NCBI GenBank assembly: GCA_028280225.1
Contig: JANQMF010000200.1
Location: 1-37,228, forward strand
DNA: 37,228 nt
Direction: 5' to 3'
Source of the DNA: Pseudomonadales bacterium
Lineage (GTDB): Bacteria; Pseudomonadota; Gammaproteobacteria; Pseudomonadales; Azotimanducaceae
The notes under the pieces were generated by a model. That model saw only the letters and a program-made list of their open reading frames with translations, did not search any database and was not told the DNA's origin. Position numbers and translations under genes: made by a program. Below, in pieces: positions 12,426-30,913 of the stretch. Position 1 is the stretch's first letter. The number at the start of each line of letters is the position of its first letter.

Positions 12426-14210
12426 TTATGGTTTGCGCCGCAGCCAGTTCCGCCATCCGCCAAACCGGGTAATATCCCGGGCGTTGTCGGGCACACCGTT
12501 AGCACAAACGAAACCGCTCACCCAGGTATTGTCCGCAAGCTGAACCTTGCCGATGGCCAGGGGTTCGGCTATGCCGTCCACAAATGAACCCCAGGTCTCC
12601 TGGGGTAAGGCCCACACTTCAACGTCAATGGCGGCACCTTCACCCGGGGAGCGGATCAGGGCCGGGCGTTTGCCGTCCGCCAGGGCGTATAGTCTGTAAT
12701 CATTGTGGGTTTGCGTTGTCCTGACAAGTCTGGCATTGCGGCTGGTAAGCTGCCAGTTCAGGGGCTGTCCGCTGAGGTGGGCACCACATACCACAATATC
12801 TATATTTGCCTTAAACGCTGCCGCAGGGGGAGGGAGGGTTGTCCTGGGCAGCGGACGTTGACTTGCCCCCAGGGGCAGGTTGATGTTTTGTTGCAGGGTG
12901 TTTGCAAAACTCAGCAGCCGGTAATCCCTGCACCAGTGGCTGAACAGGGTAACGCCCCAACTGGGCCCTTGGGGTAGTATCCCCACGGGTACCGCCGTGG
13001 CTGCATAGTCCAACAGGTTCATAAAGTTGGTATAAGTGCCCAATCTGGAGTTCAGATCAATGGGGTCTGCGGCCACCTGCTCGCGGGTATAGATGGTTGG
13101 CGTGGTTGGGGTAAGCACAAAGTCATTGGGGCTGACAAGATCGTCACATATTCTTTTCAGGCTTTGGAGCTGGTAAAAGGCCTCGAATGTCGCATCAGCG
13201 GTGCTTTCTGCGCTGAGAATGGTGTTGAGAACCGGCAGGCGTTTGTCCGCCTCTACGCCGGAGGTCGCCAGACGGCGTTCAGCCACCCAGGGTCCCTGGT
13301 ACAGCAGGCGCGCGGCGGCGTAGAAGGGTTCAAAGTTTATCCGATGCACCGTGCCACCCATGTCCACCAGAACCTGTACAGCGTGCTCAAAGAGGGCGGC
13401 GGTGTTTTTGTCACCGTCGAAGTCAAGCTGTTCGGGGATGGCAAAATTGAATGTGGCCGGGGTGGCACCAAAGTTGTGAATGGTGTTGTGGTGCGGATTG
13501 TCCCGGCTGAACGGATCCCCGGGATCCGCATGGATGCACTGTTCCAGGACGATGGCAATGTCGTTTGCGCTTGGTGCCATGATGGATATGCAGTCGATGG
13601 TGCGGCAGGCAGGGACCAGGCCGGTGGTGCTGATCAGGCCGTGGGAGGGTTTGTGACCCACAATGTTGTTAAAACTGGGTGGTACTCTTCCGGAACCGGC
13701 GGTGTCGGTCCCAAGGGCAAAGCTGACCTGCGCCAGGGCGGTGGCGACGGCGGAACCCGAACTGCTGCCGCCGGAAATAAAGGCGGGATTAAGCGCATTT
13801 AGGCCTTCACCAAAGGGGGAGCGTGTGCCGACCAATCCTGTGGCAAACTGGTCCAGATTTGTCTTACCCAGGGGTATTGCCCCGGCGTTAATTAGATGCT
13901 GTACCACCTGGGCCGACTCCGTGGGGGTATAGGTAAAACCCGGGCATGCGGCGGAGGTGGGTATCCCCGCCAGATCAATATTGTCCTTAATGGCGAAGGG
14001 CACACCGTACAGCGGCAGGCTTGCGGCATCCATACCTTTAAGCCGGTCCAGATAGGGGTCCAGTTCCGATGTGCTCAGGACGTAGATCCAGGCGTTGTGG
14101 GTATCCTCCCGGGCGCGCCTGGCCAGCATGTGTATGACGGTTTTGGGGTCGAAAGATCCCTGTTGATAGCCGCGCCGGAGGTTTTCTATCTGTAGCTGAT
14201 CTATATTCAT
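12426..14210 (-). CDS. atzF: Allophanate hydrolase
   Basis: A 594-residue amidase-signature enzyme that hydrolyses allophanate to ammonia and CO2, the last step of the guanidine/urea carboxylase route. The Ser-cisSer-Lys triad fits amidase spacing: K75 (FAIKDNID), S149 (ISGGSSSGSA) and S173 (DTAGSGRVPP). After the amidase core (to ~450) a C-terminal domain of about 130 residues (IDIVVCGAHLSGQPLNWQL...) matches the extra AtzF domain. It is the last gene of the operon, and its ATG overlaps the carboxylase stop by 4 nt (ATGA), so translation is coupled. Confidence 0.95.
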   Translation of the reverse strand: MNIDQLQIENLRRGYQQGSFDPKTVIHMLARRAREDTHNAWIYVLSTSELDPYLDRLKGMDAASLPLYGVPFAIKDNIDLAGIPTSAACPGFTYTPTESAQVVQHLINAGAIPLGKTNLDQFATGLVGTRSPFGEGLNALNPAFISGGSSSGSAVATALAQVSFALGTDTAGSGRVPPSFNNIVGHKPSHGLISTTGLVPACRTIDCISIMAPSANDIAIVLEQCIHADPGDPFSRDNPHHNTIHNFGATPATFNFAIPEQLDFDGDKNTAALFEHAVQVLVDMGGTVHRINFEPFYAAARLLYQGPWVAERRLATSGVEADKRLPVLNTILSAESTADATFEAFYQLQSLKRICDDLVSPNDFVLTPTTPTIYTREQVAADPIDLNSRLGTYTNFMNLLDYAATAVPVGILPQGPSWGVTLFSHWCRDYRLLSFANTLQQNINLPLGASQRPLPRTTLPPPAAAFKANIDIVVCGAHLSGQPLNWQLTSRNARLVRTTQTHNDYRLYALADGKRPALIRSPGEGAAIDVEVWALPQETWGSFVDGIAEPLAIGKVQLADNTWVSGFVCANGVPDNARDITRFGGWRNWLRRKP

Positions 14211-17200
14211 GACACGGCGGCATTATGCGGATCGATCCACATCAGCACCTGTCCACTGGTCACACCGTGTCCCTTGCCAACGTGGATGGCGGAAATCCGC
14301 CCGGCGACCGGTGCGGTGACCGGTACCTCCATTTTCATGGATTCGATCAGGCAAAGGGTTTGTCCCACTTCAACATGATCACCTTCATCCACGCTCAGCT
14401 CCCAGATAGACCCGGAAACAAGACTGTCCACGCACAGGCTGCCTTCCGGGCATTCTTCGATGTTGGCTGCTGCTTCACTTTCCTGTGCCTGGAAAACGTC
14501 CTGGCCGTTGGCGCGCCAGTTTTCCATTTCCTGATTAAAGGCGAGCAGACGTTTTTGGGAGAACGCTTGGATAGATGCCTGGTTGTTGCGCAGTTCTGTT
14601 TCGTAGTCCTGTAAGTCAAATTGCGTGGATTCGACCTTAAGATCATACTCGCCCAGCAGCACTTGTTCGCGAATAGCCTCTAGTTCTTCCGGGGTGACGG
14701 GAAAAAACCTGATCTGATCAAAAAAGCGCAACAGCCAGGGTTTTTCGAAAGTGCTGTTGCGTTGATAGCGGCTCCACATCTGGAGCGTGCGGCCGCATAG
14801 CTGATAACCTCCGGGCCCTTCCATCCCATAGATACAAAGATAGGCGCCGCCGATGCCCACGGAATTTTCCGCGGTCCAGGTTCGCGCCGGATTGTATTTG
14901 GTGGTGACCAAACGATGTCTGGGGTCCAGGGGGGTTGCCAGGGGGGCGCCCAGGTAAACATCTCCCAGGCCGAGGACCAGATAACTGGCGGAAAATACGA
15001 TGTTCTTGACGTCATCCACGCTGTCCAGGCCGTTTATCCGGCGGATAAATTCCAGGTTGTCCGGGCACCAGGGTGCATTACTGCGCACGGATTGACTGTA
15101 GTGTGTAGCCGCTTGTTTGCAAACAGCGTCATCCCAGGACAGCGGCAGATGGACAATGCGGCTGTCGATACGATTGTTTTGACCGCTGCAGGCTTGGCAG
15201 CCGGTATGGATGTGGTCCACCAGATGGGGTAGAGATATTGCCTGGCTGTTGTAGTGTACCTGCAGGGAGCGGACACCGGGGGTCAGTTCGCGCATTCCCG
15301 GCACGCGGTTTGTATCCAGCCATTGCATCAGTTGTTGGATACGCAGGCGCCGTGCAATGTCCAGCTCCGCAGTGCCCACTTCAATGAGTACAAAATGGTC
15401 TCCCGCGGCTCGTACCTGGACCTTGTCACTATGCAGGGTGGTTTCCAGTACAACGGGTGAAGTCAGCGGCCCCGTCTGTCGAGTGTGCTTGGATTTGTCA
15501 TCCGCCCCGGCCGCTTCCAGGGTGGTGGCCTCTTCCATAGAGACACTTTGGAAACGGATCCGGTGTCCCGCCCGCAACTGGCCGAGTTTCCATAAGTCAG
15601 CGGTGATCACCGTGGCGGGACAAACAAAGCCGCCCAGCGAGGGTCCATCCGGCCCGAGAATCACCGGCATATCGCCGGTAAAGTCCACGGTACCAAAGGC
15701 GTACGCAGTGTCGTGAATATTAGATGGATGCAAACCCGCATCGCCGCCACTATCGCGAACCCACTCCGGTTGTGGACCAATCAGCCGGATTCCGGTTCTG
15801 CTGGAGTTGTAGTGGATCTCCCAGGATGTGTCGAAAAACGTATTGATATAGTCAGGGGTAAAATATTCCGGGGCGCCATGGGGGCCGTAGATTACCCGGA
15901 TAGTCCACTCGCCGTTGCTGTTGGTTATTTGGCGGGTACGGTCCGAACAGGCCTGCTGCGGGCCTTGCCGGCTCTCTTCACCGGTGACGATCGGATTGCG
16001 TGCATCAACCAGGCGCAATTTATCCCCGGTGCGCAGTTCGCGGCCAACGTGCCCGCCAAATTGCCCCAGTACAAAGGTGGACTTGGAACCCAGGTAGGTG
16101 GGACAGGCGATACCGCCGGCAAAACCCAGGTAGGCGCGTGCTCCCCCCTGGTGTACTTCCCCCAGAACCAGGGTCTGGCCCCGGGTAATACTGAAAGGTG
16201 TATTCATCAGCACCGGCCGGGCACCAACGGATGCCTCAACAGGGGCGCCCGCCAGCACGATGTGGGTATCCCGGTTAAAGCGCAGCGTGGGTCCGTGCAG
16301 TGTAATTTCCAGGGCTGCGGCATCCCTGGGGTTACCCAGCAGGCTGTTAGCCCAGGCCAGACTCTTGGCGTCCATGGGGCCGGATGGCGGCACACCCACA
16401 TCCCAATAGCCCGGCCGGCCCAAATCCTGAATGGTGGTTTGTGTGCCCGGTTTGACGACCTCTATGGTCGGAGCCAGAAATTCATGGTTGGCCAGGGTGT
16501 TGGTCAACAATTCACCATTTTTGAACAGCGGCTGGCCGAGGATGCTGGCCACATAGGCAAGATTGGTTTCCACACCGTAGACGGAGGCGCTTTCCAGATA
16601 TGTTTGTAACTTTGTTAGCGCCAAAGCGCGGCTGTTACCGTAGCTGATAATTTTTGCCAGCATGGGATCGAACAGGGAGGGCACCGTTAAGCCGGGTTCT
16701 ACCCAGCTTTCCAGGCGAATGTTGGATTGCGGGGGGAAAGTAACCTCGCTGATTAAGCCCGGCGAAGGCATAAAATCGTTGTTGGGGTCTTCTGCGTAGG
16801 TGCGCACCTGGATAGCATGTCCCTTGGGTTCGAGGCGTTGCCGCCAGCCGGCCAAGTCTTCCATTTCTCCAGCGGCCAGGCGTATCATGCAGGCCACCAG
16901 ATCGATGTTCCATACCTCTTCGGTGACCCCGTGTTCCACTTGGAGCCGGGTATTTACCTCCAGAAAATAAAACTTCTGATCATCCGCGTCATAGATATAT
17001 TCCACCGTGCCGGCGCTGCGGTAATTCACGGATCCCAGCAGTGCCTCAGCGGTCCGGCAAAGTTCGCTGCGCACTCCATCAGGTAAATTGGGTGCCGGTG
17101 TTTCTTCAATCACTTTTTGATTGCGCCGTTGGGCTGAGCAATCCCGCTCACCCAGGCTGACCACGCCGCCAAGGCCATCACCAAATACCTGCACCTCAAT

Positions 17201-17821
17201 ATGTCGTGCGCGGGCGATGTATTTTTCCACAAAAACTTCACTGTTCGAAAAATAGCTCTTGCTCAGTTCCCGCACCGAGGCCCAGGCTTCGACAAGTTCA
17301 TCCTTGCTGCTGCACACCTGCATGCCGATACCCCCGCCACCCGCGGTGCTTTTGAGCATTACCGGATAACCCAGGTTTTTAGCCCAGGTCAGGGCCTGGT
17401 CTAAGGATTCGAGCAGGGCAGAGCCGGGGATACAGGGTACGTTGGTGGCTTCGGCAAGCTGGCGGGCTTCATGTTTGAGTCCAAACAAACTGATCTGCTC
17501 CGGGGTGGGCCCGATAAATGTGATGCCGGCGGTTTCGCAAGCCAGGGCAAAAGACTTGTTTTCGCTCAAAAATCCGTACCCCGGATGAATGGCATCCACG
17601 TTGTATTGGCGGGCAATCTCGAGAATCCTGTCCGCCTGCAGATAGGTCTCACTGACCCGCCCTGAACCCAGGGATACCTTATGGGTAGCCTGCCGCAGAT
17701 AGCTGGCCTGTCGGTCTTCATGGTGGTAAATGGCGACTGAGGCGAGCCCCATTGTGTTCAGGGTGCGGATGATGCGCCCCGCAATGACGCCGCGGTTGGC
17801 GACGAGAACTGTTTTAAACAT
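14207..17821 (-). CDS. Biotin-dependent guanidine/urea carboxylase
   Basis: A 1204-residue single-chain carboxylase. Order: biotin carboxylase with ATP-grasp (1-450; GGGGIG 161-166, ERDCSAQRRNQK 225-236, EVNTRLQVEHGVTE 288-301), a KipA-like and a KipI-like half forming the carboxyltransferase (~455-1050), and a C-terminal biotinyl domain with ESMKMEV, biotin lysine K1163. The family was first called urea carboxylase. Members that sit with two DUF1989 proteins and a ykkC riboswitch were later shown to prefer guanidine, giving carboxyguanidine. Both markers are present here, so guanidine is the likely substrate; I cannot confirm specificity from active-site residues. Two hairpins separate it from the upstream DUF1989 gene. 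Confidence 0.94.
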   Translation of the reverse strand: MFKTVLVANRGVIAGRIIRTLNTMGLASVAIYHHEDRQASYLRQATHKVSLGSGRVSETYLQADRILEIARQYNVDAIHPGYGFLSENKSFALACETAGITFIGPTPEQISLFGLKHEARQLAEATNVPCIPGSALLESLDQALTWAKNLGYPVMLKSTAGGGGIGMQVCSSKDELVEAWASVRELSKSYFSNSEVFVEKYIARARHIEVQVFGDGLGGVVSLGERDCSAQRRNQKVIEETPAPNLPDGVRSELCRTAEALLGSVNYRSAGTVEYIYDADDQKFYFLEVNTRLQVEHGVTEEVWNIDLVACMIRLAAGEMEDLAGWRQRLEPKGHAIQVRTYAEDPNNDFMPSPGLISEVTFPPQSNIRLESWVEPGLTVPSLFDPMLAKIISYGNSRALALTKLQTYLESASVYGVETNLAYVASILGQPLFKNGELLTNTLANHEFLAPTIEVVKPGTQTTIQDLGRPGYWDVGVPPSGPMDAKSLAWANSLLGNPRDAAALEITLHGPTLRFNRDTHIVLAGAPVEASVGARPVLMNTPFSITRGQTLVLGEVHQGGARAYLGFAGGIACPTYLGSKSTFVLGQFGGHVGRELRTGDKLRLVDARNPIVTGEESRQGPQQACSDRTRQITNSNGEWTIRVIYGPHGAPEYFTPDYINTFFDTSWEIHYNSSRTGIRLIGPQPEWVRDSGGDAGLHPSNIHDTAYAFGTVDFTGDMPVILGPDGPSLGGFVCPATVITADLWKLGQLRAGHRIRFQSVSMEEATTLEAAGADDKSKHTRQTGPLTSPVVLETTLHSDKVQVRAAGDHFVLIEVGTAELDIARRLRIQQLMQWLDTNRVPGMRELTPGVRSLQVHYNSQAISLPHLVDHIHTGCQACSGQNNRIDSRIVHLPLSWDDAVCKQAATHYSQSVRSNAPWCPDNLEFIRRINGLDSVDDVKNIVFSASYLVLGLGDVYLGAPLATPLDPRHRLVTTKYNPARTWTAENSVGIGGAYLCIYGMEGPGGYQLCGRTLQMWSRYQRNSTFEKPWLLRFFDQIRFFPVTPEELEAIREQVLLGEYDLKVESTQFDLQDYETELRNNQASIQAFSQKRLLAFNQEMENWRANGQDVFQAQESEAAANIEECPEGSLCVDSLVSGSIWELSVDEGDHVEVGQTLCLIESMKMEVPVTAPVAGRISAIHVGKGHGVTSGQVLMWIDPHNAAVS

Positions 17822-17895: not shown

Positions 17896-18543
17896 TTAGT
17901 GGTTCTTTGTATCCCATATCGCCACTTCGATTGGAGTGGGGTTATATCCGTTGCAGGGATTGTTCAGTTGCGGGCAGTTCGAAATCAGGACAATCGTATC
18001 CATCAGGGCTTCGAGCTCGACATATTTGCCCGGGGCCGAAATGCCGTCGGCAAAGGTTAATTTCCCATCCGGGGTAATAGGTACGTTCATGAAGAAATTG
18101 ATGTTGTGGGTAACGTCGTCTTTGCCCAGCCCATACTCCGGATGCTCTTGAATGGCCAGCATCCAACTGTCGCGGCAAGCGTGCATGGTGCGCTTTTCCA
18201 GGTCGTAACGCACCGTATTCGATTCGGTAGCGCAAGCGCCGCCCAGCGTGTCGTGGCGGCCACAGGTGTCAGCAACAATTTTCAAGAGGTTACGGTTAAA
18301 ATTGGTTTTCAAAATTGAACCGGCTGTCAAATAAACGTTACCTTGGGTGCAAATGGTGTTGTTGGCGCAATAACGCTCCTCAGGGTTATTTGCATTAAAG
18401 AACAAGGTGTCCGCGGCTTGATTACCCTGTAAATCAACAATTCGGCAAATCGATCCTGTGGTAACACGGTGGATAAAATAATCCCCTGCATCAACAACCT
18501 GCCGAAAGTCGGCATCTGCCAGGTTTAACTTACTCTCAGACAT
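17896..18543 (-). CDS. DUF1989 protein, shorter subunit (urea carboxylase-associated / carboxyguanidine deiminase)
   Basis: A 215-residue DUF1989 protein, one of the two urea carboxylase-associated proteins (UAAP1/UAAP2) found with this carboxylase. Such pairs form the heteromeric carboxyguanidine deiminase CgdAB, which releases ammonia from carboxyguanidine and yields allophanate. Conserved features are visible: C94 and H97-D98 ([11 protein letters not shown]), C104, and the terminal [20 protein letters not shown] with C190 and C197, likely metal or catalytic ligands. The start chosen is the ATG at 18543, with GGAG upstream; it overlaps the preceding gene by 8 nt. I do not assign A or B. Confidence 0.9.
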
Positions 18544-19270
18544 GGGAGGGCTCCAGGTGATACAGGGCATTGTTGTGAAAGCCGCGGCGGTTTTCTTCGC
18601 AGTGGTTAAGACAGACGTCCGTTGGAGAAACCGGTGCGGCTTCTGACAAGATCACTTCCAACTCGCCGCGGGGATAGTGTTCAGCCCGGTCCAGCGGATG
18701 GGGACAGGTATGCAAAACCACCAGACTGTCCATTTCGAAGCGCAGGGTTACGGCAGTGTGTTTTGACGGTTTATCCCGAAGCTGCATATTCCCCGCGTCG
18801 TCAACAACGACGTGGCTGAACCAGTTTACGTTCGCGGCAAAATGCCGCGCGCCCAGGCCGTACTTGGCAAGCTCGGTCAGAAAGCTGTCCCGGCCGTTCT
18901 GGCACCATTGATTGCCTTGTTGCTGATAACTGCGTCCCTGCCATTGGCTTGCAACCCTTTCTGCGTCGCTGTTCCCGCAGACGGTGTCGTGGCCGCCGAA
19001 CTGATCGTCAATGACGGAACACAGAATTCTGCCCATATCGCTGTACAGGCAATGTCCCCGGGTCAACGTAAAGGTATGTTGGCACTTTAAGGTATCCGGT
19101 GCGTTGTACTTTTCGTGGAGCAGGTATTTGTTGTACAGGAGCATGCCGACATTAATACCGCCTTGCCGGTCTGTCATAGTCAGATTAAAACCGCGACGCA
19201 TGAAGAAGGACCAATGTTGTCCGCTTGCCAGAGTGGTTTTGTAGATTTCGTTTTGAATCGGATTGTTCAT
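18536..19270 (-). CDS. DUF1989 protein, longer subunit (urea carboxylase-associated / carboxyguanidine deiminase)
   Basis: A 244-residue DUF1989 protein, partner of the shorter paralogue downstream and probably the other half of carboxyguanidine deiminase. Key pieces: [17 protein letters not shown] near the N-terminus, [11 protein letters not shown] in the middle (HDT motif shared with the partner), [14 protein letters not shown], and [12 protein letters not shown] near the end (the CPQ region of the partner, but without its second Cys). Its ATG overlaps the stop of the ABC ATPase gene by 4 nt (ATGA), tying transporter and enzyme genes into one transcript. Assignment as subunit A or B is left open. 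Confidence 0.9.
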
Positions 19271-20076
19271 AACGCTGCTTTTTGCGGTATATCCTTGTTC
19301 AGTTCATTGGTCAGGGTGTCTTCAACCAGCCTGCGGGCATCTCCCCGTTCATCCACAGGCAAGTCGTAGGTGATGGTGCTGCCATAAAGTTCCGGTTCGT
19401 GGGGGTCGTGGCGAACTTTGTCAAATACCCAAAGCCGGGTACCTAAATAAAATCCTTCCGCAAGATCGTGGGTCACCATAAAGATTGTCAGCCGGTGGTT
19501 TTCCCACAGTTTAAGAACCAGCTGATACATGTCCTTGCGGATGCCCGGGTCCAAGGCCCCAAAAGGCTCATCCAAAAGCAATACCTGTGGCTGTTTTAAC
19601 AAAGCCTGGGCCAGGGCAAGGCGCTGTTGCATACCCCCGGAAAGTTCGTGGGGATATTTGTCAGCCGCATCCTGCAAGCCCACGGCCTTGAGCCAATGGT
19701 CTGCCTCTTCCATGGTTTGTTTACGCTTTGCGTTGAACTGCCGGCCAAAAATTCGGGTATCCTCCAGCTCCCGGCCCAGGGCAACATTCTGGCGCACGTT
19801 GAGATGGGGAAAAACGGAATACCGCTGAAAAACAATACCCCGGTCGGGACTGGGTTCAGCGTGGACCGGCGCACCGGCAATGCTCAGAGTGCCGGTGGAA
19901 ACCGCTTCGGTACCCAGCAGGAGTTTTAGAAAAGTACTTTTGCCGCAACCCGAGGTCCCCACCAGGGTGATAAATTCACTGCGGTTGACAGAGGTTGTTA
20001 TGTTCTCCAGAACACAATTGCTGTTATAAGACTTGCCTAAACGTTCCAGTTGGATAAGCGGTTCAGTATTAGTCAT
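19267..20076 (-). CDS. ABC transporter ATP-binding protein, guanidine/urea-carboxylase operon
   Basis: A 269-residue NitT/TauT-type ATPase: Walker A GTSGCGKST (40-48), Q-loop VFQRYSVFP, signature LSGGMQ (145-150), Walker B LLLDEP (166-171) and switch His in MVTHD. The roughly 45 residues after the core are longer than in simple SsuB-type subunits. It powers uptake through the permease encoded just upstream, whose gene it overlaps by 8 nt; it overlaps the next gene by 4 nt. With the binding protein at 20902 it forms the importer typical of these operons. The likely cargo is guanidine or a related amide (inference from context). Confidence 0.93.
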   Translation of the reverse strand: MTNTEPLIQLERLGKSYNSNCVLENITTSVNRSEFITLVGTSGCGKSTFLKLLLGTEAVSTGTLSIAGAPVHAEPSPDRGIVFQRYSVFPHLNVRQNVALGRELEDTRIFGRQFNAKRKQTMEEADHWLKAVGLQDAADKYPHELSGGMQQRLALAQALLKQPQVLLLDEPFGALDPGIRKDMYQLVLKLWENHRLTIFMVTHDLAEGFYLGTRLWVFDKVRHDPHEPELYGSTITYDLPVDERGDARRLVEDTLTNELNKDIPQKAAL

Positions 20077-20890
20077 CGTGATACCAGGGAAAAGATTTTT
20101 GACTGATCAGGATAAGCAGACGGTCCAGAACGAAGGCAAGGAAGGTAATCCAAACCACATAGGGGAGAATAACGTCCATGGCAAGATATCTGCGTACCAG
20201 GAAGATGCGGTAGCCCAGACCGTCGGTTGCGGCGATGGCCTCAGCGGCAATCAGAAATAACCAGGCGGAGCCCAGGCTGAGGCGCACGGCACCAATCAAT
20301 CGCGGAGCAATTTGCGGTAACAGCACCCGAAAGACAACCTGGGATGAATTGCCGCCCAGGGTCTGCGCCTTAATTAACTGCTCTGCGGGAATTTCCTTGG
20401 TTCGCAGATAAATCTCCCGGGTGATGAAGGGGCTGATACCAATAATGATCAGGACCACTTTTGACAGCTCGCCCAGACCAAAGACAATAAACAATATGGG
20501 CAGAATGGCCATGGGTGGGATTAGAGATATAGCGGTGATCACCGGGGTCGAAAGCGCATCGAACATGGGAAACGCTCCCGTTGCCAAGCCGAATGTCAGT
20601 CCCAGCAGGGCGGCTATGGCAATGCCGCTGAGTAAACGTGTCAGACTACTGGCCGTGTCCCGCCACAGCAGGTATTGCCCGGTGCGTTTACTGGGTTGAA
20701 AAGCATGTCGGTCCACGGCCGCGGACATTTCACTGAAGCTGGGCAACAGCTTGTCTTTAGGGTTTTCCGCCTTGCGTGCGTCCGACTGGTACTGATATAC
20801 CAGCAACAGTACCAGGAACGGCAGCAAGCCCAGCGTTATTTTTAAGAACATGCTGGGCTGGGCGTTAATCCAGCGTCGTGACCTGCTCAT
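20069..20890 (-). CDS. ABC transporter permease, guanidine/urea-carboxylase operon
   Basis: A 273-residue inner-membrane permease of the NitT/TauT family. It has an N-terminal helix (LKITLGLLPFLVLLLVYQY), a periplasmic stretch of about 60 residues, then five further hydrophobic segments. The cytoplasmic EAA-type loop is clear at EQLIKAQTLGGNSSQVVFRV, followed by LLPQIAPRL, and contacts the ATPase. It lies between the binding-protein gene (11-bp gap) and the ATPase gene (8-nt overlap). Confidence 0.92.
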   Translation of the reverse strand: MSRSRRWINAQPSMFLKITLGLLPFLVLLLVYQYQSDARKAENPKDKLLPSFSEMSAAVDRHAFQPSKRTGQYLLWRDTASSLTRLLSGIAIAALLGLTFGLATGAFPMFDALSTPVITAISLIPPMAILPILFIVFGLGELSKVVLIIIGISPFITREIYLRTKEIPAEQLIKAQTLGGNSSQVVFRVLLPQIAPRLIGAVRLSLGSAWLFLIAAEAIAATDGLGYRIFLVRRYLAMDVILPYVVWITFLAFVLDRLLILISQKSFPWYHDD

Positions 20891-20901: not shown

Positions 20902-22002
20902 CTACAGTTTGCCGTCTGCCGCCATTTGCATATAGGTTGGATCAAAACGCAGCAGCACGTTGTCCGCGTCCCCAAAGATGCCTGCCGGTGTGGCAATGCC
21001 GATAAATCCGGCGTCAGGGGCGCCCTCTCCCAGCAAGCCGTGGGTGAACGAAAACTCGGCTACATACTGCATGGTTTGCAGAAGATCCGGGCTGTTCACG
21101 AAGTCTACCGCGTCGCCGGCGGCGTAATACATGTGGGTTGACGCCAGCTGCATTTCGTAGCCAGCCAGATCCGTACCCGATGCTTTGCCCATGGACGCTC
21201 TGACGTCAGCGCTTTCCTGCATGTTTTGCATAATCTCGTACCACGCACCTGCCAGCGCCTTACCCAGGTTTGGGTTTTCCTGCAGTGTTTGTGTATTGAT
21301 CATCAGGGTGTCGATAATTTCACCGGGGATAGAAGCTGAGTCGAATACCTTTGTGGCTCCGGGCATCTTCAGAATCTCCGCCACCAGGGGATTCCAGGTC
21401 ACTACACTGGTGACGTCCTTGGTGGTATAGGCAGAGACCATGTCCGCATCCGAGGTGTTGACAACGGTGACGTCTTTTTCGGCGAGGGAAACAGAATCCA
21501 AGGCTCTAGCCAGCAGGTAGTGGGAAACACTGAGCTCAACCAGATTAACCTTTTGCCCTTTGATTGCGGACAGAGATGTTTCATCTTTCAGGATAATGGC
21601 GTCGTTACCATTGGAAAAGTCCCCGACAATCAAGGCGGTGGTGTCAACACCGCCGGCGGAGGGAATGGTCAGGGCATCCATATTGGTCATGGTACAGGCA
21701 TCAAACTCGCCGGCGGTGTATTGGTTGATGGACTCGATGTAGTCGTTTATTTGCACCACCTCTATATCGATGCCGTATTTGTCCGCCCACTTGTTAACAA
21801 TGCCGGCCTCAGCACCATAACCCCAGGGCATCCAGCCGACGTAGATCGACCAGCATACCCGAAACGAATCCCGCTCAGCCACGGCTTGCCCCAGGGGAAC
21901 AGCAGATAGAATCAAAAGGCAGGTGGAGAATATCAGGGGAGTAAAGAAGCCGCGTTGGCGGCGGGTGGTTTGTGTTTTATGTGCCGAAAATAGCTTGTAC
22001 AT
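20902..22002 (-). CDS. ABC transporter periplasmic substrate-binding protein (urea-carboxylase region type)
   Basis: A 366-residue periplasmic binding protein, first gene of the operon. The ATG at 22002 has AGGAG eight bases upstream; a TTG one codon earlier is less likely. The signal peptide has a long positive n-region (HKTQTTRRQRG) and a hydrophobic core ending near GQAVA. The mature part has the fold of NitT/TauT solute-binding proteins (SFRVCWSIYVGWMPWGYG, GEFDACTMTNMDAL, VTWNPLVAEI) and matches the family known from urea-carboxylase gene regions. The Trp/Tyr-rich start (CWSIYVGWMPWGY) could line a pocket for a small planar cation such as guanidinium (inference). The guanidine-I riboswitch lies in its leader. 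Confidence 0.93.
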   Translation of the reverse strand: MYKLFSAHKTQTTRRQRGFFTPLIFSTCLLILSAVPLGQAVAERDSFRVCWSIYVGWMPWGYGAEAGIVNKWADKYGIDIEVVQINDYIESINQYTAGEFDACTMTNMDALTIPSAGGVDTTALIVGDFSNGNDAIILKDETSLSAIKGQKVNLVELSVSHYLLARALDSVSLAEKDVTVVNTSDADMVSAYTTKDVTSVVTWNPLVAEILKMPGATKVFDSASIPGEIIDTLMINTQTLQENPNLGKALAGAWYEIMQNMQESADVRASMGKASGTDLAGYEMQLASTHMYYAAGDAVDFVNSPDLLQTMQYVAEFSFTHGLLGEGAPDAGFIGIATPAGIFGDADNVLLRFDPTYMQMAADGKL

Positions 22003-22047
22003 CAAGGAACTCCTAACTGGTCACTAGAGAGTGTTCTGGTATGCACC

Positions 22048-22152
22048 AAAAATCTCCCGGGCTTTTATCCCTCCGTGTAACCTTAGGTCTTGTGCACCTT
22101 AACAAGGTCGACAGCTCTCGGACCAGACGCTGCATCAGCCGGAACCCTAGCT
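22048..22152 (-). ncRNA. Guanidine-I riboswitch (ykkC class)
   Basis: Read on the minus strand, the hallmark conserved segments appear in order: CTAGGGTTCCGG (22150-22139), GGTCCGAGAG (22124-22115), ACACGGAGGGA (22078-22068) and AAAAGCCCGGGAGA (22066-22053). These are the signature blocks of the ykkC/guanidine-I aptamer, which binds guanidinium and turns genes on. It lies about 50 nt before the start of the binding-protein gene and heads the whole operon. I see no clear downstream terminator hairpin; only a T run (22052-22048) follows the last conserved block, so the expression platform (early termination or ribosome access) is not settled. Confidence 0.93.
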
Positions 22153-22245
22153 ATCCATTTTATGGCTGCGTTGTCCTGTTGAACAAACAATACCAGAACG
22201 CAGTTTTGTCTAATCACGCTTATCGCAATTTTGTATGTGAGGATC

Positions 22246-22262
22246 TGCAATTCGTATGCCAA
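22246..22262 (-). promoter_or_regulatory. Sigma-54 (-24/-12) promoter of the guanidine operon
   Basis: On the minus strand TTGGCATACGAATTGCA matches the RpoN consensus YTGGCACG-N4-TTGCW, with GG and GC separated by exactly 10 bp. The predicted transcript starts near 22235, giving a leader of about 233 nt that contains the riboswitch. Two NtrC-like sites lie 118 and 149 bp upstream of that start. Confidence 0.75.
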
Positions 22263-22344
22263 CGGATGCCCGCAACGGTTTTGCCCCTTTGTGTGTGATT
22301 TTTTGCGCATTAACGGGCTTATTGGGGCGGGCGGCCCAGCAGGA

Positions 22345-22361
22345 TGCAACATTTTGGTGCA
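22345..22361. promoter_or_regulatory. NtrC-like enhancer site 1
   Basis: TGCAACA-TTT-TGGTGCA matches the NtrC consensus TGCACCA-N3-TGGTGCA at 13 of 14 arm positions. It is 31 bp (three helical turns) from site 2, centre to centre, much like the paired sites at E. coli glnAp2. Confidence 0.75.
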
Positions 22362-22375
22362 TGGGCAATGGCGAG

Positions 22376-22392
22376 TGCACCAAAACTGTGTG
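22376..22392. promoter_or_regulatory. NtrC-like enhancer site 2 (one perfect half-site)
   Basis: TGCACCA-AAA-CTGTGTG has a perfect left half and a poor right half (3 of 7). Together with site 1 it forms a 10-bp inverted repeat, TTTTGGTGCA (22352-22361) and TGCACCAAAA (22376-22385). Confidence 0.55.
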
Positions 22393-22486
22393 TATTGGTC
22401 AGGCAGGTGCCGCGCAAACGTGAAAATTGCCGGTTAAACCACCGGAGCAGAGCGCTTAAAAACGCTTTTTGATCAACTTTTGGACT

Positions 22487-22503
22487 TTGGCACAGTCTGT
22501 GCA
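22487..22503 (+). promoter_or_regulatory. Sigma-54 (-24/-12) promoter of the TorF-type porin
   Basis: TTGGCACAGTCTGTGCA has TTGGCAC intact and GG-N10-GC spacing, differing from the RpoN consensus at two positions. The predicted start is near 22514, about 90 nt before the porin ATG. The NtrC-like sites are 130 and 161 bp upstream of that start, within normal enhancer range. Confidence 0.7.
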
Positions 22504-22603
22504 GAACACCGGTTGCAAAGGCTTGGGCTGTGATCGCATGTGCATATGCCGCTTCAGTTTAAGCCCGGTTAACTACATTAGATAAAACAATAAGGGGTTT
22601 ATA

Positions 22604-23296
22604 ATGCACATTTCTAGATTGGTACGCGGAATTTTCGGGATGGCTTTGCTGTCCAGTAGCGTTGCGGTTTCCGCGGCGGAAATGTCAGGTTCTGCAACCT
22701 TGGCCACCGACTATGTATTCCGGGGTGTTTCTCAAACCAGCGAGAAAGGTGCCGTACAGGCGGGCCTTGATCTTGCTTTTGACAACGGCGCCTATATTGG
22801 CACCTGGGGATCAAACGTCGATTTTGGCTCGGAAGTGACCACGGAAATGGACTTTTTTGCCGGATATGCCTTTGATGTTGCCGAGGGTGTCACGTTAGAC
22901 CTCTCCTACATTTACTTTTACTATGCCGGGAACGAATCCGCGCTGAACTACAGCGAATATGTGGCTTCTCTGAGCGTCTCTGATGTTTCATTTACATTGG
23001 TCTATTCGCCGGACTACTTCGGTAGTGACGAAAACGCTCTGGTCTACAACATTGACTATTCCTTAAGCTTAAGCGAAAACGTCTCGTTGGATTTCCACAT
23101 TGGCTATACCGATACCGAAAGTGAAGCTCTGGGCACCGATGAAGACAGCTACATCGACTATCTTGCCGGTATCAACTATGACTGGAGTGGGACAACCTTT
23201 ACCCTGGCCGTTGCGGGTACCGATGCTGATGAAGACGAAAATTTTGGTGACGCCGGTGAAGCACGGGCTGTATTCTCAGTCAGCCGGTCTTTATAA
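22604..23296 (+). CDS. TorF family outer-membrane porin-like protein
   Basis: A 230-residue outer-membrane beta-barrel protein of the proteobacterial TIGR02001/TorF type. A signal peptide (MHISRLVRGIFGMALLSSSVAVSAAE) is followed by the family hallmark ATDYVFRGVSQTSEKGAVQ and GAYIGTWGSNVDFG, then acidic alternating strands to a terminal SRSL. Members are often found next to glnK-amtB ammonium uptake genes, pointing to passage of small nitrogen compounds. Here the gene is divergent from the guanidine operon, has its own -24/-12 promoter and shares the NtrC-like sites, so passage of guanidine or another nitrogen source across the outer membrane is plausible. The ribosome site AAGGGG is well placed. 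Confidence 0.88.
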   Translation: MHISRLVRGIFGMALLSSSVAVSAAEMSGSATLATDYVFRGVSQTSEKGAVQAGLDLAFDNGAYIGTWGSNVDFGSEVTTEMDFFAGYAFDVAEGVTLDLSYIYFYYAGNESALNYSEYVASLSVSDVSFTLVYSPDYFGSDENALVYNIDYSLSLSENVSLDFHIGYTDTESEALGTDEDSYIDYLAGINYDWSGTTFTLAVAGTDADEDENFGDAGEARAVFSVSRSL

Positions 23297-23474: not shown

Positions 23475-23502
23475 TTGACCTAAAATGTCCGCACCATAAA
23501 TT
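23475..23502 (+). promoter_or_regulatory. Candidate sigma-70 promoter for the fused ABC gene
   Basis: TTGACC (23475-23480), a 16-bp spacer and TAAATT (23497-23502). If real, transcription starts near 23509, after the TTG at 23501, which favours the GTG at 23519 as start codon. Confidence 0.4.
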
Positions 23503-23518
23503 GGGTGGAAACATCTGC

Positions 23519-25801
23519 GTGGCAAAGCTGGGTGGACAGGGTGGACACGGTGGACAGGGTAGACAGTCGGAACCGCACCGGCTTGCACTGGGGTGTTTTC
23601 TCCTTTGCCTGGGTACCTTGGTTTCCGGTGGCTGCCGGGAAGTTGAACAGGCCACCATTAACAGTGTTGAAGACATCAGATTTGCGCGGATCGGCGTCAC
23701 TACCGGGTCTACCCCGGCACAATTGGCTTACGAACGGTTTCCCGAGGCGCAGGTCAGCGAATTTGGCGATTCAACAGATTCGTTGGGTGCACTCCAGGCG
23801 GGACATATCGACGCAACCATTACCAGCATTAATGCCGGTCTGATGGCGGTGCGCCATAATCCTGACTTGAGATTGCTGGAGACCACCCTGCGCGAGGAAC
23901 AAACCTGTGCGGCGGTGCGTAAGGGCAACGAAGCACTTCGCGCTCAAGTTAACCGGGTTATCCGCAAGTTACGTCAAAACGGCACCCTGGCCGACATGAG
24001 CCGACGCTGGTTCAAGCAACAAGCAGGGCCTTACGAAGAACCCGAATATCAGTTGCCGACAACGGGAAAACCCCTGCGGGTTGGTGTCAGTGCCACCCGC
24101 GAGCCCTTTTCATTTGTAGATCAACAGGGCCGTGTTACCGGGCACGATGGTGAGCTGGCCCGTGCTCTGTCCGTGGAGCTGGGCCGGCCCCTGGAATTTA
24201 TGGACACCCGCTGGGATGCGCTGGTTCCTGCGCTGCAAGCGGGAAAAATTGACATTATTGTTACCGGGATGAGTTACTCCGCGGAAAGAGCGGAACGTAT
24301 CGACTTTACCGACAGCTATTATAACAACAAACTGGTGGTGCTCACCCGGGTACCGGCCGGACACAAACCGGCGGCCACAAAAAGGCTTGCCGCGACCGAT
24401 CTGGCCACCGCCAAGGTAGGGGTGCTGCAGGGTTCGGCCCACGATGTTTTTGCGCAGAAGAACTGGCCCGGGGCAGAGCTGCTGCACTATACCAACTATG
24501 CAGATTTGTTGGTTGCCGTAGAGGGAGGTAAGGTTGCAGGGGGGATTTCGGATATCGATCCGTTGCGTGAAGCAATGCGGACAAAACCCGGATTCCAGCC
24601 TTTGCAGCCGACGTTATTTTCTTCAGAAGTGGCTGCGGGCTTTCGCCGGGATAATGTCAGGCTCAGACGTCAATTTGACGAATTTTTGTACCGGCTTTCC
24701 GAAAGCGGTGAGCACGCCGCTTTTTTACACCGTTGGCGTGAGGCTTCCGATTTCGACATGCCGGTGCTTGACATGCCTGTTCAGGGTGAGCCCCTGCGTG
24801 TTGGTAATGCCATTTTAGGGTTACCTCAAGTAGCGGTGCGGAATGGTGAACTGGTGGGGCTGGATGTGGAGCTTGCGCAGCGGTTTGGCCTGTATCTGAA
24901 GCGGCCTGTGGAATTTGTGACGTTGGATTGGCAGGCGCTGATTCCGGCATTAACATCGGGAAAGATAGACGTGGTCATATCGTCCATGTTCGCCACCCCT
25001 GAGCGCAGGGAGCGTATTGCCTTTTCGCATCCCTACTACAAGGCGGACGTGGTTGCCTTTGTGCACCGTCCGGTGTCGGGTGTCGGCCAGCCACAAACCC
25101 AAACTCAGCCCGGCTTCTGGGCCAGTGCCGCAAGCAGTTTTCACAGCAACATTATTCGCGAAGACCGTTATCTTCTGCTGTGGGATGGGCTCAAAACAAC
25201 CATCTGGCTGTCGTTGTGGTCGACCCTGTTGGGGACTTTGTTAGGCGGTGTCGTCTGTTTCATGCGGATGTCACCCCTTAAGGTCATGCAGCTTCCGGCA
25301 AAAGTGTACATATCCGTCATGCGGGGTACACCGGTTCTGGTGCTGCTGATGTTAATCTTCTATGTCATCTTTGCCTCAAGTCAGATCAGCCCGGTGGTGG
25401 TGGCGGTTGTCGCCTTTGGTCTGAACTTTGCGGCCTATGTGGCGGAAATTTTCCGCAGCGGCGTACGCAGTATCGATCCGGGCCAGACCGAAGCAGGGCT
25501 GGCAATGGGATTCAGCAAACTGGCAACCTTTATCCACATCGTGTTACCGCAGACGGTGCAACGTATATTGCCGGTCTACAAAGGTGAATTTATTTCTCTG
25601 GTGAAGATGACTTCCATCGTGGGTTATGTTGCGGTCCATGATCTGACCAAGGCATCGGACATCATTCGCAGCCGTACCTTTGATGCCTTCTTCCCCATCA
25701 TTATGGTGGCGGTACTTTACTACTTGATTGCCGTCTTTCTGACTCACGCCCTGGAGTATGTTGAAAAGATGACCGACCCACAGCGCCGCCGGCGGATTTG
25801 A
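23519..25801 (+). CDS. Amino-acid ABC transporter: duplicated permuted substrate-binding domains fused to permease
   Basis: About 760 residues (766 from a TTG at 23501; numbering below uses that). A hydrophobic segment (LALGCFLLCLGTLVSGGC, ~28-45) looks like a lipoprotein-type signal. Then come type-2 binding-protein lobes in the order II (~56-172), I (~190-290), II (~300-425) and I (~430-530). Lobe II blocks open with IGVTTGST or VGVLQGSA; lobe I blocks with LRVG...GLDVELA and PALQAGKID. A His/Glu/Gln-type permease follows (~555-755; YISVMRGTPVLVLLMLIFY, EAA loop DPGQTEAGLAMGFSKLATF). It imports polar amino acids or similar. Natural relatives with one II-I unit plus permease exist; here the unit is doubled. 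The ATPase gene follows 9 bp later. Tandem 9-bp repeats overlie the start, so the true N-terminus is uncertain. Confidence 0.9.
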   Translation: MAKLGGQGGHGGQGRQSEPHRLALGCFLLCLGTLVSGGCREVEQATINSVEDIRFARIGVTTGSTPAQLAYERFPEAQVSEFGDSTDSLGALQAGHIDATITSINAGLMAVRHNPDLRLLETTLREEQTCAAVRKGNEALRAQVNRVIRKLRQNGTLADMSRRWFKQQAGPYEEPEYQLPTTGKPLRVGVSATREPFSFVDQQGRVTGHDGELARALSVELGRPLEFMDTRWDALVPALQAGKIDIIVTGMSYSAERAERIDFTDSYYNNKLVVLTRVPAGHKPAATKRLAATDLATAKVGVLQGSAHDVFAQKNWPGAELLHYTNYADLLVAVEGGKVAGGISDIDPLREAMRTKPGFQPLQPTLFSSEVAAGFRRDNVRLRRQFDEFLYRLSESGEHAAFLHRWREASDFDMPVLDMPVQGEPLRVGNAILGLPQVAVRNGELVGLDVELAQRFGLYLKRPVEFVTLDWQALIPALTSGKIDVVISSMFATPERRERIAFSHPYYKADVVAFVHRPVSGVGQPQTQTQPGFWASAASSFHSNIIREDRYLLLWDGLKTTIWLSLWSTLLGTLLGGVVCFMRMSPLKVMQLPAKVYISVMRGTPVLVLLMLIFYVIFASSQISPVVVAVVAFGLNFAAYVAEIFRSGVRSIDPGQTEAGLAMGFSKLATFIHIVLPQTVQRILPVYKGEFISLVKMTSIVGYVAVHDLTKASDIIRSRTFDAFFPIIMVAVLYYLIAVFLTHALEYVEKMTDPQRRRRI
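23531..23566 (+). repeat. Four tandem 9-bp repeats at the start of the fused ABC gene
   Basis: GGTGGACAG, GGTGGACAC, GGTGGACAG, GGTAGACAG in direct succession, encoding a Gly-Gln/His-rich stretch before the signal segment. Nine-base units keep frame. The low-complexity N-terminus may be untranslated or variable in copy number. Confidence 0.85.
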
Positions 25802-25810
25802 TTAAGCCAT

Positions 25811-26950
25811 ATGATTAAGATCGAGGCGTTACGCTGCAGCTATGGTGATTTGGAGGTGCTTAAAGGGGTGAGCGCTGAAATAGAAAAAGGTGAGGTGATC
25901 AGTATTATTGGTCCGTCGGGCTGCGGTAAGAGTACCTTCTTGCGTTGTCTGAATCTGCTGGAGCAACCGGACAGTGGATCCATACGTGTTGACGGCCTGG
26001 AATTGCTGGCCCCGGGTGTGGAGGTTGCCAAGATACGCCAGCGCATGAATATGGTTTTCCAGTCTTTTAACCTGTTTGAACACATGACGGTCAGGGAAAA
26101 TCTGACCCTGGCACCGGTCAAGCTGCGAGGCATGTCAAGAAGGGCGGCGGATGAAAAAGCGCTTGAGTTGCTGCGTACCGTTGGCCTGGCCGAACGTGCA
26201 GACCATTTACCCCGCGAACTTTCGGGAGGGCAAAAACAACGTGTAGCCATTGCACGGTGTTTGGCCATGGACCCGGATATCATCCTGCTGGATGAACCAA
26301 CCTCTGCCCTGGATCCAACCATGGTTGGGGAGGTGCTGGCTGTCATTCGAAACCTTGCTGAGCGTGGCCTGACCCTGCTGATTGTCACTCATGAAATGGA
26401 CTTCGCCAGGGAGGTGTCTTCCAGGGTGTTTTACATGCACCAGGGCAAAATACACGAAGCCGGGCCGCCCGATGCCATGTTCGATCAGCCGGTGCTTCGC
26501 GAAACCCGGGCTTTTGTGAAAATGGTCAAGTCGTGCCACTTGAACATAGAGTCTTCACAACCGGACTTATTTGCCCTGCATAGCCAGATAGAAAGTTTTT
26601 GTCAGAAACACCTGCTTGGCCGGAAGCAAATCCATCAGGTGCAGCTGCTTGTTGAAGAACTCATGGTGGTGTTGACACCCGAATTGAAGCTGGGATCTCA
26701 ATACCGGATGGAAATTGAGTACATTCAGGGCCAGCGAACCGTGCAGGTTAATTTGCGCGGGCTTGAGGGCACAAACACGGTTGTCGGCAGAAACACCATG
26801 CCGCTTTTTGGTCAGTCCCCACCCGCCGGCGAGGATATGTCCGAGGATCTCAGTGCCACCCTGATTTTGAATCTGGTGGAACGCCTTGAGTTCAAGGAAG
26901 ATGCCGGGGGCGCGTTCGAGTTTTTGATGAAGAAACCCGTGCCCGACTGA
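25811..26950 (+). CDS. Amino-acid ABC transporter ATP-binding protein with extra C-terminal domain
   Basis: A 379-residue protein. Residues 1-245 are a standard polar amino-acid ATPase (GlnQ/HisP type): Walker A GPSGCGKST (34-42), Q-loop FQSFNLFEH, signature LSGGQKQR (137-144), Walker B IILLDEP (157-163), switch IVTHEMDFA. Usual members end near 245. Here ~135 residues follow (from ESSQPDLFALHSQIESFCQ). They include QIHQVQLLVEELMVVL and a C-terminal ATLILNLVERLEF, with a layout reminiscent of a GHKL/RsbW-like ATPase fold lacking its N- and G-box residues; this comparison is tentative. It works with the fused binding protein/permease encoded 9 bp upstream. Confidence 0.9.
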   Translation: MIKIEALRCSYGDLEVLKGVSAEIEKGEVISIIGPSGCGKSTFLRCLNLLEQPDSGSIRVDGLELLAPGVEVAKIRQRMNMVFQSFNLFEHMTVRENLTLAPVKLRGMSRRAADEKALELLRTVGLAERADHLPRELSGGQKQRVAIARCLAMDPDIILLDEPTSALDPTMVGEVLAVIRNLAERGLTLLIVTHEMDFAREVSSRVFYMHQGKIHEAGPPDAMFDQPVLRETRAFVKMVKSCHLNIESSQPDLFALHSQIESFCQKHLLGRKQIHQVQLLVEELMVVLTPELKLGSQYRMEIEYIQGQRTVQVNLRGLEGTNTVVGRNTMPLFGQSPPAGEDMSEDLSATLILNLVERLEFKEDAGGAFEFLMKKPVPD

Positions 26951-30109: not shown

Positions 30110-30913
30110 ATGAAAGTACTGATTACCGGTGCAACCGGCGGTTTTGGCCGGATTCTGGCAGATTTTCTGCTCCGGCAAGGTTTGCAGGTGGTGGGTACCT
30201 CCAGGCACCCTGACCGGCATGAGTGCAGCTTCCCGCTGTACCCGCTGGATGTTTCTGACGACACTTTTGTTGCTGAGGGAATACAGTACATTCTCAGCCG
30301 GGAAGAACGGATCGATGTACTTGTTAACTGCGTTAACGAACTTGTAATCGCCAGTACGGAAGAGCATCGCGTAGCGGATCTGTGTGCGCTTTATCAGACC
30401 AATGTTTTTGGGGTCATGCGCGTATCCAAGGCGATCTTACCCGCTTTTCGCCGGCAGCAAAGCGGGCTGATAATCAATATGAGTTCCCTTGGCGGACTGT
30501 TGGCTGTGCCTTATTTTGGCGCTTATACATCAGCCAAATTTGCCCTGGAAGCGCTAACCGAAGCGTTGTACCACGAGCTGAGGGATGAGCCCATTGATGT
30601 TGTCATCATGCAGCCGGTTGCCATGTATATGGAACGCCCGGCAACGGGTAGTCATCTGCGGGTAGCGGATGGTGTTGCTGCGGATTCTTTCAGCCACAAC
30701 GTGGTCAACATGATGGCCAGAGATACCGCATCGAGTAAACTGAAGCCTGAGCGGGTTGCGGCAAAAATTCACCAGATCATCCGGATGAAAAAGCGGCCCC
30801 TGCGTGTGCCCATGGACCGGGCCAGAGCCATTACCCTGGTCAAGCGGATTGCCCCGCAACGGATAATTAACGGTTTGATCGACAACCTTATGAAGAACGC
30901 GGGGGCACCATAG
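30110..30913 (+). CDS. Short-chain dehydrogenase/reductase
   Basis: A 267-residue classical SDR from the ATG at 30110 (AGGG upstream; a GTG two codons earlier is possible). Cofactor turn TGATGGFG (residues 6-13), catalytic Ser in NMSSLGG (~S126), Tyr and Lys in YTSAK (~Y139, K143), 13 residues after the Ser as expected. The usual NNAG motif after strand 4 is replaced by NCVNE, an uncommon variation. It probably interconverts an alcohol and a ketone using NAD(P)H. Its stop overlaps the next gene's GTG by 1 nt (TAGTG), so the GST is co-translated. Confidence 0.88.
   Translation: MKVLITGATGGFGRILADFLLRQGLQVVGTSRHPDRHECSFPLYPLDVSDDTFVAEGIQYILSREERIDVLVNCVNELVIASTEEHRVADLCALYQTNVFGVMRVSKAILPAFRRQQSGLIINMSSLGGLLAVPYFGAYTSAKFALEALTEALYHELRDEPIDVVIMQPVAMYMERPATGSHLRVADGVAADSFSHNVVNMMARDTASSKLKPERVAAKIHQIIRMKKRPLRVPMDRARAITLVKRIAPQRIINGLIDNLMKNAGAP

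Follow-up and report, generated by a model that had tools for sequence, protein, structure and literature searches.

The intergenic gap at positions 22006-22603 of the window (the whole stretch of DNA analysed, 37,228 nucleotides) probably acts as a nitrogen-control hub, a reading to which we assign a probability of roughly 0.78. The gap measures 598 bp; a guanidine operon on the minus strand has its first gene on one side of it, and a porin gene on the plus strand lies on the other. Phosphorylated NtrC would open two outward-facing sigma-54 promoters within it, riboswitches would gate the leftward transcript only, and the arrangement would have been born of the juxtaposition of porin gene and operon. 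The features concerned are collected in Table 1.

Table 1. Positions of promoters, candidate regulator sites, RNA elements and genes in the window.
Feature	Position	Strand	Details
Sigma-54 -24/-12 promoter, guanidine operon	22261-22246	-	TGGCATACGAATTGCA; GG-N10-GC; predicted +1 near 22235
Sigma-54 -24/-12 promoter, porin gene	22488-22503	+	TGGCACAGTCTGTGCA; GG-N10-GC; predicted +1 near 22514
NtrC site 1, palindrome	22345-22361, centre 22353	.	TGCAACATTTTGGTGCA; 1 mismatch of 14
NtrC-type site 2, essentially half-site TGCACCA	22376-22392, centre 22384	.	4 mismatches; 31 bp from centre of site 1
Helix 5' arm	22199-22190	-	GTTCTGGTAT; +36 to +45; 10/10 pairs with 3' arm
Helix 3' arm, just behind aptamer	22042-22033	-	ATACCAGAAC; pairs with 5' arm
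Guanidine-I riboswitch aptamer, operon leader	22161-22052	-	RF00442, 87.4 bits (gathering 63)
Guanidine-II riboswitch, before carboxylase gene	17891-17833	-	RF01068, 35.7 bits (gathering 32)
ABC substrate-binding protein, first gene of operon	20902..21999	-	TIGR03427, 552 bits (cut-off 334)
ABC permease	20069..20890	-	no family over cut-off; best matches taurine/sulfonate/nitrate types
ABC ATPase	19267..20076	-	top match of nitrate type, under cut-off
UAAP1, carboxyguanidine deiminase subunit by literature name	18536..19270	-	TIGR03425, 285 bits (cut-off 206)
UAAP2, carboxyguanidine deiminase subunit by literature name	17896..18570	-	TIGR03424, 313 bits (cut-off 285)
Guanidine carboxylase	14207..17821	-	TIGR02712, 1681 bits
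Allophanate hydrolase	12426..14210	-	TIGR02713, 681 bits (cut-off 511)
TorF/Gcw_chp family putative porin	22604..23296	+	TIGR02001, 170 bits (cut-off 47); PF09694, 114 bits (cut-off 24)

Sigma-54 promoters are built on a GG-N10-GC core in the context TGGCAC/TTGC, and were scored with a weight matrix based on the published consensus. The left and right promoters of the gap, with scores of 16.0 and 15.0, ranked first and second on both strands of the 37-kb window, the next score being 12.6. Since scores of at least 15 occur in first-order random sequence at approximately 0.011 per kb per strand, simple arithmetic gives a chance of about 4e-5 for two outward-facing matches in a 598-bp gap. A loose -24/-12 pattern (up to 2 mismatches) was without excess in the window, with 53 matches against 56 expected, and the weight matrix was therefore used together with conservation. 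The same matrix also picks up promoters at the glutamine synthetase, glnK-amtB and ntrB genes of this genome. Both promoters are kept in locus L002 (genome G038) and in genome G006, which apart from the window's own were the only genomes seen to have the layout, and 15 of the 16 bases of the left promoter are identical in L002. The first-pass annotation had proposed two divergent -24/-12 promoters with exact GG-N10-GC spacing; score rank, outward orientation and conservation in the related gaps, the check that it had suggested, all bear this out. Within the gap no sigma-70-like promoter was found, and no direct or inverted repeats were reported at default settings. In G006 the porin promoter is doubled, with tandem boxes TGGCACGCAAAGTGC and TGGCACGCAATGTGC (L083:880-940), an apparent local duplication.

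That the elements are chance look-alikes and that other promoters are in use would fit the frequency of the loose pattern, which is as common as chance in the window, but it is highly improbable in the face of the score ranks, the controls, the conservation, and an RNA helix that coincides with the predicted start (see below). At the level of sequence, both predicted promoters and their control by NtrC are well supported.

The leftward genes encode a transporter and the enzymes of guanidine breakdown. Asp713 of the carboxylase aligns with Asn1330 of the Kluyveromyces lactis urea amidolyase (5i8i_A), which we take to be the residue meant by the rule that separates the two kinds of enzyme. According to the available part of PMC12186494, Asp in place of Asn marks guanidine carboxylases, and Asp is the active-site residue found here. 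The guanidine-I riboswitch lies downstream of the left promoter and ahead of the first gene; neither it nor the guanidine-II riboswitch had been seen in the first-pass annotation. A guanidine-II riboswitch scored 35.6 bits in G006, while in L002 none exceeded the gathering score. The presence of both classes in one operon is already known (PMC12508155 and PMC12186494, in the portions available).

The left promoter was compared across guanidine operons, using the best 80 loci that code for a relative of the binding protein, plus the window. Of these 81 loci 78 were scored, with L003 and L060 (no aptamer motif by a simple pattern) and L070 (masked) left out. A sigma-54 score of at least 12 within 180 nt upstream of the guanidine-I aptamer was obtained for 55/78 operons, the window included, as compared with 0/78 on the antisense strand and 1/78 inside the first gene; the other 23 operons scored below 12. 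Of 68 operons (those with enough upstream DNA among the 70 loci with a promoter score of at least 9), 26 had an NtrC site with up to 3 mismatches in the interval from -220 to -70; within the gene the count was 0/68, and shuffled sequences gave an expectation of 0.32. The remaining 42/68 had no site at this threshold, by a matrix and a consensus that are both crude. Because many of the loci are related, these counts do not represent independent events. The predicted left promoter is thus of a general type among guanidine operons, located upstream of the guanidine-I riboswitch.

The promoter on the other side is likewise not peculiar to the window. PF09694 gave 36 matches in 31 of 38 genomes, and 20 of the 36 loci, window and G006 among them, were analysed. 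Upstream of the porin gene a sigma-54 score of at least 12 was reached at 18/20 loci (inside the gene, 2/20); on the opposite strand it was reached at exactly two, the window and G006, and there it marks their guanidine promoters. Among 206 genomes of the bacterial family, a close porin was found in 27, the window's own included, and the loci of the other 26 were all read. A sigma-54 promoter precedes the porin in 26/26 orthologues (inside the gene, 0/26) and an NtrC-type site with up to 3 mismatches lies in the 400 bp upstream in 20/26 (inside the gene, 0/26). A glnK-like gene follows on the same strand in 24/26, and the two orthologues lacking it are those that have a guanidine-I riboswitch in divergent orientation. 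Since glnK is the downstream gene in so many orthologues, ammonium or general nitrogen supply is indicated for the porin, which looks like a general nitrogen-starvation porin rather than a guanidine-specific one. An AlphaFold model made from two porin sequences contained strands only, with a mean pLDDT of 40. Locus L173 (genome G138) appears to be from the same organism as L002, with an identical porin promoter sequence and the same 88% porin.

The first-pass annotation had cast the porin as the outer-membrane step of guanidine use, which would make it a dedicated guanidine channel recruited for that purpose. Its position head-to-head with the operon in three genomes would suit such a role, as would its strongly acidic character (36 D+E versus 4 K+R after residue 25), fitting for a cation such as guanidinium. 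Acidity, however, is common to 20/20 Gcw_chp proteins (net charge -17 to -42), 18 of which come without the divergent layout; a search of the porin leader gave no Rfam match, and hence no guanidine riboswitch on that side. With the porin belonging to a general, NtrC-type-controlled kind that usually precedes glnK, this part of the annotation is not supported, and we regard a dedicated guanidine channel as unlikely.

The amino-acid-type ABC genes at 23501-26950 were considered as part of the porin unit and rejected: the binding/permease protein had no tblastn match in the retrieved DNA of L002 or of any other compared locus, and by ORF reading it does not follow the porin in G006. This protein (766 aa, 23501-25801) combines several family-3 solute-binding stretches with an ABC permease domain, and an ABC ATPase comes after it.

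The divergent layout was found in three genomes, namely that of the window, that of L002 (porin 88% identical) and G006 (76%). A porin profile run on 80 loci, with upstream DNA of up to 5 kb and in some cases a few hundred bases, detected no further case. In the window's genome contig C51 carries glnK-amtB, which has a sigma-54 promoter of its own (16.8) and an NtrC site with 1 mismatch but is not directly preceded by a porin gene. The simplest reading is that the porin gene, which stands before glnK in relatives, moved against the guanidine operon in the ancestor of the small clade. Since each promoter is general in its own family, two older NtrC units would have become neighbours here, an NtrC-controlled porin gene being placed head-to-head with a guanidine operon under NtrC control as well.

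Candidate NtrC sites were sought with TGCACCA-N3-TGGTGCA, which we take to be the consensus palindrome. Palindromes with at most 1 mismatch occur at three places in the 4.4-Mb assembly, site 1 of the gap among them; with at most 2 mismatches there are 37, versus 10 for a reversed control pattern. Six of the other NtrC-like palindromes of this genome (up to 2 mismatches) were read with their surroundings; they lie on contigs C134, C51 and C185, each with a sigma-54 score of at least 12 nearby, and on C46, C106 and C218, which have none; because three of the six are without such a promoter, a palindrome alone is no proof of NtrC control. The three with a promoter are located at ntrB (C134), glnK-amtB (C51) and a nitrate-type ABC gene (C185). 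A further isolated palindrome in the window (30904-30920, 2 mismatches) falls where an ORF begins (30913), and no strong sigma-54 promoter lies in its vicinity.

An NtrC-like site pair 31 bp apart in the gap had been proposed in the first-pass annotation. The centres and the spacing stood up to scrutiny; site 1 is a palindrome with 1 mismatch, while site 2 proved to be essentially a half-site, with 4 mismatches. Recomputation reproduced the claimed distances from the starts, -118/-149 on the left and -161/-130 on the right. Conservation was likewise partial: L002 retains half-sites with the 31-bp spacing, whereas G006 is re-spaced, with its best site at -87 from the guanidine start and -206 from the porin start, and a half-site at -208 and -85, respectively.

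These positions bear on whether one enhancer pair serves both promoters, as had also been claimed. Both promoters could depend on sigma-54 and NtrC through sites that are not shared, their closeness being a by-product of gene rearrangement. The arrangement in G006 favours this alternative, and since each promoter there has its own site or half-site near -86, two separate enhancers may operate in that genome; own NtrC-type sites are, moreover, common elsewhere (porins 20/26, guanidine operons 26/68). Against it, the good sites or half-sites of both the window and L002 lie between the promoters, about -97 to -161 from both starts and 31 bp apart. Such distances are within the usual range of enhancers, and enhancers of the NtrC kind work in either orientation. 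We consider unshared sites somewhat unlikely, and one enhancer common to both promoters plausible for the window and L002. Sharing is nevertheless something that we infer, because site 2 is a half-site and the sites of G006 are re-spaced, so that the geometry of the pair is not conserved throughout.

The window's assembly contains rpoN, but no ntrC over the curated cut-off. Seven proteins matched the ntrC model with more than 250 bits; judged by their neighbours and sequence ends, they are presumably PilR (the best match), two flagellar regulators, a PspF-like and a CbrB-like protein, and two others. In a search of 38 genomes ntrC exceeds the cut-off in 36, the misses being this assembly and G022, and both relatives that share the layout (G006 and G038) have the gene. 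On contig C134, ntrB starts at base 448 and extends toward base 1; the alignment covers residues 3-120 of 382 and reaches base 98. Because ntrB thus runs to the end of the contig, ntrC probably lies in an assembly gap and is not absent, and we rejected its apparent absence as an argument against NtrC control. The gene that follows ntrC in G006 gave only a 21-bit match in the window's assembly.

The seven matches without a protein over the NtrC cut-off could also mean that one or both sigma-54 promoters answer to another enhancer-binding protein. This is very unlikely given the state of ntrB and the wide occurrence of ntrC, and given that the sites in the gap match the NtrC palindrome, which this genome also has at its promoters for glutamine synthetase, ntrB and glnK-amtB. 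Sigma-54 scores there were 17.4 for glutamine synthetase (GSII type), 16.8 for glnK-amtB, 14.0 for ntrB and 13.6 for the nitrate-type ABC gene, with an NtrC-type site near each of the four (gene names read from sequence).

A gene that looks like a GSII glutamine synthetase, a label again read from sequence, precedes ntrB-ntrC in G006. The GSII-type gene (L155:1838-2854 in G006; G000:C134:1574-2581 in the window's genome) encodes 338 aa, and the proteins of the other two genomes are 87% identical to that of G006. The sigma-54 16-mer before it, TGGCACACTTCTTGCT, is identical in three genomes (L166:2767, L155:1656, L167:1088). Because no GlnA exceeded the TIGR00653 cut-off in the three genomes searched, GSII may serve as the clade's main glutamine synthetase.

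Control by NtrC from the gap would then proceed as follows. Under nitrogen limitation, phosphorylated NtrC would occupy the palindrome near 22353, with the half-site near 22384 helping, and would loop to RNA polymerase-sigma-54 at both outward promoters and open both. To the right, the TorF-family porin would be made with no further control seen; to the left, the transcript of the guanidine operon would have to pass the guanidine-I riboswitch and then the in-operon guanidine-II riboswitch before the carboxylase gene. Because riboswitches are found on the left side only, the porin would be made whenever nitrogen is short, and the guanidine enzymes only if nitrogen is short and guanidine is present. 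What the DNA sequence shows directly is the elements with their ranks, conservation and context; that NtrC binds and activates, that both promoters use the same sites, and how the genes were rearranged are steps that we infer from it.

The leaders of guanidine operons share a further feature, in that sequence immediately behind the predicted sigma-54 start can pair with sequence immediately behind the aptamer. This helix was analysed in 67 leaders, comprising 66 of 70 (four were without a simple aptamer-end pattern) and that of G006, by a gapless method that searched from 60 nt upstream of the predicted start. The best helix began at -2 to +12 in 58/67 leaders, where a uniform spread predicts 9.3, and this position lends independent support to the predicted sigma-54 starts. 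Shuffling gave p of at most 0.02 in 39/67 leaders, and 37 of these 39 helices begin within the same interval. The position profile of the 66 leaders reached 16.0, 19.7 and 16.2 at 0, +5 and +10 and stayed near 12 elsewhere (11.4-13.4), the profile of the inside-gene control being 11.0-13.0. A leader's own arms scored 28.7 on average, versus 19.3 for arms swapped among distant loci, and were better than all swaps in 29/67. The 56 accepted helices comprise 40 distinct outer sequences, in which all four kinds of Watson-Crick pair, and a few mismatches, occur within the first eight positions; because acceptance itself required pairing, it is the position and swap tests that carry weight. No other covarying partner of the 3' arm was detected between -130 and +110 around the aptamer end in 50 loci. 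A gapped duplex method was weaker (z below -2 in 24/51; own arms better than all cross pairs in 11/67), and the gapless method was used in its place, the arm positions of the gapped duplexes not being interpretable.

The window's clade does not provide the best example of this helix, because there it starts late or swapped arms score equally: it starts at +36 in the window (1/20 swaps as good), at +61 in L002 and at +12 in G006 (7/20 swaps as good). To judge from the alignment, the window and L002 probably use a promoter that lies upstream of the position used in G006. When the aptamer fold was enforced, the window's helix formed with a probability of about 0.7, its pairs having predicted values of 0.58-0.71; single-sequence folding of the window's leader did not show the helix (z = -0.9) and predicted a different fold.

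Control of translation by the helix was considered and rejected, as the predicted freedom of the ribosome-binding site was 0.22 with and 0.19 without the leader (41 loci, p = 0.33). In the window, enforcing the aptamer did not free the ribosome-binding site either (0.32 to 0.31). The start-codon region of the window became freer with the aptamer enforced, from 0.15 to 0.55, but a similar rise was seen without the leader (0.19 to 0.48), so this change is not due to the leader. The helix may act as a 5'-terminal clamp that affects RNA stability, or as a platform that forms only in the presence of ligand.

Nitrogen promoter and guanidine-I riboswitch of proteobacterial guanidine operons may form one coupled device, a proposal that we make tentatively and at slightly less than even odds. 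The 5' arm would fold over the aptamer and pair behind it, guanidine would favour closure, and the switch would work only with the correct sigma-54 start. In the window's clade the device would sit at an enhancer that also serves a general nitrogen-starvation porin, making the operon's side an AND gate (nitrogen shortage and guanidine) and leaving the porin's side to respond to nitrogen alone. In those parts of the guanidine literature that we consulted, no signal other than guanidine is discussed for these operons. Because many proteobacterial guanidine operons also stand behind predicted nitrogen-starvation promoters, the guanidine signal alone should not suffice. The helix that covaries around the guanidine-I aptamer is of interest as PMC6031431, in the part available, calls the tails not conserved in that class. 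On the porin side, a little-studied outer-membrane family becomes tied to nitrogen supply by its promoters and by glnK (26/26 and 24/26 orthologues, respectively); among the literature matches listed for the name TorF/Gcw_chp, all papers were unrelated apart from one on Shewanella.

The first-pass annotation knew of no description of such a layout for guanidine genes. As far as the sources available in part allow us to say, this stands for the head-to-head join, and nitrogen control as such has precedents in an ntrC mutant (PMC5491218) and in a prediction (PMC12316311). In the consulted part of PMC5491218, the ntrC mutant of Burkholderia cenocepacia H111 has an annotated urea carboxylase, BCAS0272, down 6-fold; its neighbours, an ABC binding protein and an aminomethyltransferase, are given as 'na(m)', taken as not detected in the mutant, and several porins are down and one is up. 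The genes of that regulon are not called guanidine genes there, and that part mentions neither a riboswitch nor a divergent porin. Sigma-54 control of COG3665 genes was predicted genome-wide in PMC12316311, whose main text, as available, has no occurrence of 'guanidin', 'porin' or 'divergent'. The accessible text of PMC12186494 likewise contains no occurrence of NtrC, sigma or porin. Among the matches listed from the openly licensed literature, no paper has as its subject guanidine riboswitch operons joined with NtrC or sigma-54, and we found no earlier description of either the head-to-head join or the promoter-riboswitch coupling.

The closest known operon is that of Vreelandella boliviensis, in which the carboxylase operon is alike in having guanidine-I at its start and guanidine-II before the carboxylase, and whose proteins are strongly up on guanidine versus ammonium (PMC12508155, in the part available); in that part NtrC and porin do not occur, and 'sigma' occurs only as a chemical supplier. 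The helix recalls P0 of the PRPP riboswitch, in which the ends of a ykkC-type aptamer pair together (PMC6031431, consulted in part), but it is longer, stands at some distance from the aptamer and begins where the transcript is predicted to start. With the porin-glnK loci of the same bacterial family the gap has in common the porin family, the sigma-54 promoter and the NtrC-type site; there glnK follows the porin gene, whereas in the window's clade glnK-amtB is located elsewhere and the neighbour that the porin gene faces is the guanidine operon. In E. coli glnAp2, two enhancer sites approximately 32 bp apart lie upstream of a sigma-54 promoter, and in divergent hyc/hyp an enhancer region bound by FhlA is common to two divergent sigma-54 promoters. 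The geometry of the gap is similar to both, with other genes and with a riboswitch added on one side.
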